From positions 1 through 39,359 of the IMG/VR virus record IMGVR_UViG_3300033146_000471: 39,359 bases of DNA; one strand, 5' to 3'. The notes beneath the pieces are model-generated. The model ran no database searches, was not told where the DNA came from, and worked only from the letters and a program-made list of their open reading frames with translations. The stretch comes from a virus. Positions 39,302-39,359 of the stretch are shown here, piece by piece. The position numbers were made by a program, and so were the translations under genes. Every line of letters begins with the position of its first letter. Position 1 is the stretch's first letter.

Positions 39302-39359
39302 TGAAGAAGCATTACAGCAATAGATTATTCGACTGTTAATCGAGTGAGTATAGGTTCGA
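39302..39359 (+). tRNA. tRNA-Asn (anticodon GUU) starting with its 3' half, cut by the window end
   Basis: TGA (39302), AGAAGC and CAGCAATAG (39315-39323) are the same left flank as in the Pro cassette. After four bases comes the anticodon arm TTCGA-CTGTTAA-TCGAG (39328-39344, anticodon GTT at 39335-39337), a 5-base variable part and the T arm start ATAGG-TTCGA. No acceptor or D arm stands upstream of the anticodon arm, so the 5' half should lie beyond 39359 if it is permuted as in Pro. Confidence 0.7.

Follow-up and report, generated by a model that had tools for sequence, protein, structure and literature searches.

The Salmonella RNA repair operon rsr-yrlBA-rtcBA encodes together a Ro homologue, Y RNAs that mimic tRNA, and RtcB, and its authors proposed inhibition of an anticodon nuclease as a possible role of the tRNA-like domain (PMC7790460). 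Jumbo phages are also known carriers of ROT/TROVE proteins and RtcB; the passages of a jumbo-phage review that deal with these proteins name a tRNA-like partner in cellular organisms, and RNA arrays are not described in those passages (PMC7824862). Circularly permuted tRNA genes are known from algae and Archaea, where they are spliced through a BHB motif by the splicing endonuclease (PMC3978253, PMC3218864). Our literature search found no paper on permuted tRNA in phages.

Here we analyze an IMG/VR virus record of 39,359 bases (the window, i.e., the whole stretch of DNA at its full length), a virus fragment with T4-like replication genes and a cluster of small RNAs in its last 1.1 kb. A preliminary description had taken the tRNA-like piece with an Asn anticodon arm at its very end for a probable permuted tRNA-Asn gene. 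That description was correct about the permuted order, but it probably erred in calling the piece a tRNA gene. Judged by comparison of sequences, the Asn unit very probably makes up the 5′ portion of a Y RNA, a tRNA mimic bound by a Ro60-like protein.

The Asn and Pro units at the end of the window

The features of the small RNA cluster are listed in Table 1. Only the 3′ half of a tRNA, with the T arm just begun, is visible in the Asn unit, and the 3′ arm of its Y stem lies beyond the window. The 5′ half falls beyond the 39,359-base record and was not found elsewhere, and no close relative of the window that extends past 39359 turned up. The Asn and Pro cassettes are near-identical over the 26 bases up to and including CAGCAATAG (TACTGAAGACCATTTGCAGCAATAG / TATTGAAGAAGCATTACAGCAATAG). 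It had been noted before that the Asn anticodon arm follows CAGCAATAG after 4 bases, with the spacing of the Pro cassette, and this can be read directly in both cassettes.

Table 1. Small RNA features and promoter-like sites at the end of the window
Feature	Position	Strand	Sequence or composition	Basis
Promoter-like sites (three, near-identical)	38348-38376, 38684-38712, 38974-39002		TTGACT/G, 17 nt, TATATT	
Mini unit	38405..38474	+	stem AGATGAG/CTCATCT, ACAGCAA core, Lys-like (UUU) anticodon hairpin CAAA-CTTTTAC-TTTG, then GTT	sequence
tRNA-Ser(tga), ordinary	38489..38571	+		ARAGORN, Rfam
tRNA with enlarged anticodon loop	38580..38658	+	loop of about 16 nt	Rfam tRNA, 52.7 bits
Odd tRNA-like stretches (two)	38793-38865, 39030-39135			
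Pro unit, complete	39140..39282	+		sequence; R1 match; fold z -2.3
Pro outer stem	39140-39148 / 39272-39280	+	AAGTTCTAC / GTAGAACTT	sequence
Pro Y stem	39152-39156 / 39265-39269	+	AGACC / GGTCT	sequence
Pro core	39161-39167	+	GCAGCAA	sequence
Pro anticodon hairpin	39177-39191	+	ATC-TTTGGGA-GATCG	sequence
Pro T arm	39196-39212	+		sequence
Pro acceptor strands and linker	39213-39219 / 39227-39233	+	GCGATCC, linker of 7 nt, GGGTGGC	sequence
Pro D arm and following bases	to 39253; C27 G28 at 39255-39256	+	D arm, A26, C27 G28	sequence
Asn unit, putative 5′ part of a Y RNA (permuted tRNA-like RNA), cut by the window end	39305..39359	+	AGAAGCA-TT-ACAGCAA-TAGATTA-TTCGA-CTGTTAA-TCGAG-TGAGT-ATAGG-TTCGA, then contig end	sequence; R1 match
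Asn Y stem, 5′ arm	39305-39311	+	AGAAGCA, TT next	read from sequence
Asn core	39314-39320	+	ACAGCAA, TAGATTA next	read from sequence
Asn anticodon arm	39328-39344	+	TTCGA-CTGTTAA-TCGAG, anticodon GUU	read from sequence
Asn variable bases and T-stem 5′ strand	T-stem strand 39350-39354	+	TGAGT, then ATAGG	sequence
Asn T loop	ends at 39359, the final window base	+	TTCGA	sequence

In the Pro unit the 3′ half of a tRNA stands ahead of the 5′ half, and both fit one tRNA. The acceptor strands GGGTGGC and GCGATCC form six of seven pairs, with one mismatch, and joining 5′..GCAC-A-CG to ATC-TTTGGGA-GATCG.. restores a perfect Pro anticodon stem. When the halves were joined in silico between positions 28 and 29 (28/29), ARAGORN called tRNA-Pro(tgg). 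The T arm, the closed acceptor hairpin and the D arm occur in YrlA-type order both in this unit and in 23 aligned relatives. The preliminary description had also stated that no acceptor or D arm precedes the Asn piece. Both do precede it, at 39227-39256, but they belong to Pro, as judged by acceptor pairing and by the anticodon stem: this half ends in A26-C27-G28, which pairs with Pro 42-43 (CG) and not with Asn 42-43 (AG). The layout expected past 39359, namely an acceptor 3′ strand, a linker, an acceptor 5′ strand, a D arm and a stem that pairs with the bases preceding ACAGCAA, remains the one we would predict.

A covariance model built from 23 units of other phages only (R1) finds both units. 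The preliminary description was right that the Asn unit repeats the Pro unit and that its parts stand in circularly permuted order. The Pro match covers 39152-39272 (51.5 bits, E 1.2e-10) and the 3′-truncated Asn match 39305-39359 (26.4 bits and, searched against the whole window, E 2.7e-4), the E-values being rough because of a short calibration. The third-ranked window match (E 0.078) consists of two ordinary tandem tRNAs. A real permuted Met unit, shortened to end where Asn does, scored 25.5 bits; two ordinary tRNAs cut at that base gave no 3′-truncated match, one being blank and the other yielding only a different, 5′-truncated match of 17.6 bits. As R1 scores tandem ordinary tRNAs in some control records (in one of them with E 2.4e-10, at model positions 25-103), its matches need the ACAGCAA stem too. 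ARAGORN, and Rfam at its cut-offs, missed both the Asn and the Pro unit, and the Rfam tRNA model gave the Asn piece only 18.8 bits.

The mini unit in Table 1 is a third unit of the same kind in the window and was absent from the preliminary description. Its predicted fold consists of the stem and the anticodon hairpin (z -1.55; 13 of 200 shuffles were at least as stable). Elsewhere in the cluster, the enlarged anticodon loop of the tRNA at 38580-38658 includes the palindrome GATGCATC. Of the two odd stretches, one matches tRNA at 32 bits, its anticodon arm being abnormal, and the other is a tRNA-like unit closed by a perfect 13-bp helix (GTAGATATGTTCA/TGAACATATCTAC). Each promoter-like site (38348, 38684, 38974) precedes a small-RNA group, and the surroundings of two of the three form a near repeat (88%).

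Recurrence and covariation in other phages

The layout stem-ACAGCAA-3′ tRNA half-linker-5′ tRNA half-stem′-GU is seen again in dozens of further phages in IMG/VR. A generic pattern allowing any stem (ACAGCAA...GGTTCGANTCC...GTAGCTNAG) gave 100 matches in IMG/VR. The acceptor strands pair at no fewer than six of seven positions in 75 of these, and 74 of the 75 acceptor-pairing units have complementary outer arms of at least 6 bp and of diverse sequence. With three quarters of the matches being such units, the earlier view that tandem permuted genes reflect a system and not an accident is upheld. Counted as distinct units, acceptor pairing of at least 6/7 was found in 62 of 82, against a mean of 9.2 and a maximum of 17 after swapping strands (500 trials). 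The CAGCAA core lies between 7-bp complementary arms at 113 places, compared with 14.5 on average when its bases are rearranged; ACAGCA, which overlaps CAGCAA, scores high too in this comparison. Searching for GGAAAC before CAGCAAT returned 31 loci, of which about 24 were judged tRNA-derived from reading the flanks, and many of the loci sit in phage contigs of 100-520 kb. The pattern GGAAACN1-4CAGCAA occurs dozens of times in 21 phages and its reverse only a few times, while the hairpin form with fixed arms GTTTCC/GGAAAC had no match in IMG/VR. A first pattern, CAGCAATAG..GGTTCGA, proved too loose, with mostly chance matches, and was discarded. Genome contigs contained 3 pattern matches among 84,980 species, all in MAG contigs, so that, judged by that single pattern, the units belong chiefly to phages.

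Covariation was assessed in 23 aligned units. Paired bases occupy 95.5% of cells, and the score was 0.81 compared with 0.195 for shuffled and at most 0.14 for slid alignments, over which the structure has an advantage since it was set by hand from the same 23 sequences. Double changes were seen in all seven Y-stem pairs and in both split anticodon-stem pairs (27-43 and 28-42). The best junction of the halves is mostly 28/29 or 29/30 and in a few units falls within the loop. ARAGORN called the joined halves a tRNA in 58 of 58 cases vs. 11 of 40 crossed pairs, several joins being tried per case equally for true and crossed sets. Linker length varies between 2 and 22 nt, and 10 of 62 units have a linker of only 2-4 nt (e.g., TTCG, GAAA, GTAA) that seals the acceptor stem, which means that those copies cannot be charged tRNAs. 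The rumen giants, by contrast, have long linkers that start like tRNA 3′ ends, a point against the Y RNA reading proposed below. Mini-units consist of the stem and core only, plus an anticodon-like hairpin in 68 of 137 (12 in shuffles). The phage units form a large and for the most part unannotated family of RNAs that mimic tRNA, lie in arrays with a Ro60-like protein and often RtcB, and escape standard tRNA and Rfam searches.

Some further arrangements were seen in the phage contigs. Several linear tRNA genes (L147 8324; L152 2531 and 2645; L134 6316 and 7161; L139, - strand 1061) hold an ACAGCAA hairpin, with a loop such as GTTTA, in the anticodon arm, at 29/30 in the clearest cases; removing it from two tested genes left a normal tRNA-Gly and tRNA-Ile by ARAGORN. 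Another tRNA-like type, on the - strand at L144 6979, L148 496, L172 6814 and L143 6621, comprises ACAGCAA units with a T arm and an acceptor, in which a short GC hairpin plus TATTGG/AATGG replaces the D arm and a normal anticodon arm is missing. In one phage contig (L215 1206-1770), a group I intron directly abuts a tmRNA-like gene at its 3′ end, and a phage tmRNA (L112 94-456, 76.9 bits) adjoins a permuted Thr unit.

Ro-like protein and RtcB genes beside the units

In Mycobacterium phage GuuelaD, a mini unit, a permuted unit and a second mini unit begin 50 nt past gene 54, which is annotated as ‘Ro-like RNA binding protein’. The product, gp54, belongs to phrog_850 and carries Pfam DUF2828 plus a vWA-like domain. 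DUF2828 was present in 47 of 62 carrier records, often less than 500 nt from the units, and in none of 48 other IMG/VR records; carrier records are larger on average than these controls, and the domain occurs too in many carriers of 30-60 kb. Homologues of gp54 lie on the same strand within 3.3 kb at 36 of 87 loci. For the predicted structure of gp54 (pLDDT 76, pTM 0.64), the best Foldseek match was the Ro autoantigen 1yvr (E 6e-5, with a low full-length TM-score), and VIA gave Z 13-14 to a Trove domain, to D. radiodurans Rsr and to Ro60 of the Thermus phage phiLo. The model combines the HEAT-like ring and the vWA fold by which the Ro60 family is recognized, and the closest structures are Ro proteins. 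Despite the Ro-like annotation of gp54, the TROVE model PF05731 matched none of the 62 records, which points to a divergent Ro-like protein as the partner.

Five giant phages (G002, G004, G006, G007, and G010) have the Ro-like gene, RtcB and the array in this order on one strand, the Ro-like match in G002 and G004 being under the family cut-off. RtcB adjoins the arrays in five of eight giant phages. A T4 Rnl1-type ligase was found in one giant phage only, and archaeal EndA (PF01974) had no match in 9 records. The window's own 39-kb record, a fragment, yielded no Ro-like or RtcB gene.

Y RNA reading, its alternatives and known systems

Bacterial and phage Y RNAs of the YrlA family were reportedly studied by Chen et al. 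in 2014 (RNA 20:1715, cited in PMC9569102). The Rfam YrlA model (RF02553) matches relatives of the window units with 33-48 bits (E down to 5e-9), a score owed mostly to the T arm, acceptor hairpin and D arm that they have in common; the window units were not among these matches. As the gathering score of 69 was not reached, the relatives would be a variant of the Y RNA kind and not members of RF02553. The outer ACAGCAA stem, this sub-threshold YrlA match, the Ro60-like neighbor, the mini-units lacking T, D and acceptor arms, and the sealed acceptors all point to a Y RNA, and they speak against maturation to tRNA-Asn, the part of the earlier reading that we give up. With many related copies beside a Ro60-like protein, the units are most likely Y RNAs and not tRNA genes in pieces.

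We propose that the ends of the RNA pair into the ACAGCAA-carrying Y stem, the presumed binding stem for the Ro60-like protein, which this phage or its host would supply. The body would be a tRNA mimic comprising, from 5′ to 3′, the anticodon hairpin, the T arm, the linker-closed acceptor stem and the D arm, with the Y stem leaving the anticodon stem at about 28/29. The DNA would read as a circularly permuted tRNA gene because both ends of the RNA lie within the Y stem instead of at the acceptor. Such an RNA would be neither spliced nor charged, and could serve as a tRNA decoy or tether, for instance by occupying anticodon-arm enzymes such as anticodon nucleases; the window units would imitate tRNA with an Asn or Pro anticodon arm. 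We favor the reading that the units may be decoys for anticodon nucleases. Retention of the full anticodon arm with its loop, together with the anticodon-like hairpin in half of the mini-units, argues that the anticodon arm itself matters. With covarying anticodon arms for many tRNAs and mini-units reduced nearly to a hairpin, it becomes testable whether Y RNAs act as decoys or sensors of anticodon-cutting host enzymes.

The units could instead be permuted tRNA genes. The two strands of the Y stem would then be halves of an intron and be excised at about 28/29, after which RtcB would form a circle that RNase P and 3′ enzymes open to a working tRNA. The consistent ARAGORN calls for true vs. crossed halves, RtcB beside the arrays of five of eight giant phages, normal-looking anticodon loops, and the linear tRNAs with the same hairpin at 29/30 all suit this reading. 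We nevertheless regard it as unlikely, given the acceptors sealed by 2-4 nt, mini-units that could not become tRNAs, the lack of EndA matches in 9 records, the association with the Ro-like gene and the mismatch in the Pro acceptor; RtcB, Ro and Y RNAs together, moreover, make up a known bacterial operon (PMC7790460). For the Ro-like gene, the sealed acceptors and the mini-units, a novel self-splicing or protein-spliced tRNA intron is likewise ranked below the Y RNA reading. There is a slim chance that the units are Y RNAs and that the same gene nonetheless yields a functional tRNA, the Y-stem strands being removed at 28/29 and the remainder sealed by RtcB. If so, bacterial viruses would possess a naturally occurring system for splicing permuted tRNAs.

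Two readings confined to the locus itself fare worse. Were these ordinary intron-containing tandem tRNAs, the D-arm half at 39227-39256 would belong to the Asn 3′ half, to which it is adjacent, and intron-like linear forms do exist in a few phages. Yet its C27 G28 and its acceptor strand both pair with Pro, Pro would be left without a 5′ half, and R1 matches Pro as a complete unit, so that we hold this to be very improbable. Chance tRNA-like fragments or decayed tRNA pseudogenes might account for the Pro acceptor mismatch, and the Asn unit is seen by half only; the R1 E-values with their truncation controls and the covariation across phages contradict such an origin, to which we attach scarcely any credence.

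In favor of the Y RNA reading, comparison across phages shows how the units are built, that their stems covary and that they recur, as well as their association with a Ro60-fold protein and, in giant phages, with RtcB. The YrlA family (RF02553) resembles the relatives of the window units in its terminal Y stem, in the permuted order of its T arm, closed acceptor hairpin and D arm, and in genes that stand beside a Ro60-like protein with RtcB nearby. The Rfam YrlA consensus has neither an anticodon hairpin nor an ACAGCAA core, whereas the phage units have a complete split anticodon stem and tRNA-like loops; this full anticodon arm is their main difference from the consensus, and they also differ in their arrays, their mini forms and their scores under the Rfam cut-off. 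Compared with the Salmonella operon, the system is phage-borne, comes with a DUF2828-type Ro-like protein and forms large arrays, with neither protein gene in the window fragment. Jumbo phages with ROT/TROVE proteins and the Thermus phage phiLo with its Ro60 (PDB 9l5y) resemble it in having a Ro-type protein and RNA ligases. The permuted tRNA genes of algae and Archaea share the 3′ half placed before the 5′ half; unlike them, the phage units have an ACAGCAA stem, no splicing endonuclease was found with them in the 9 records searched for EndA, and some of their acceptors are sealed.
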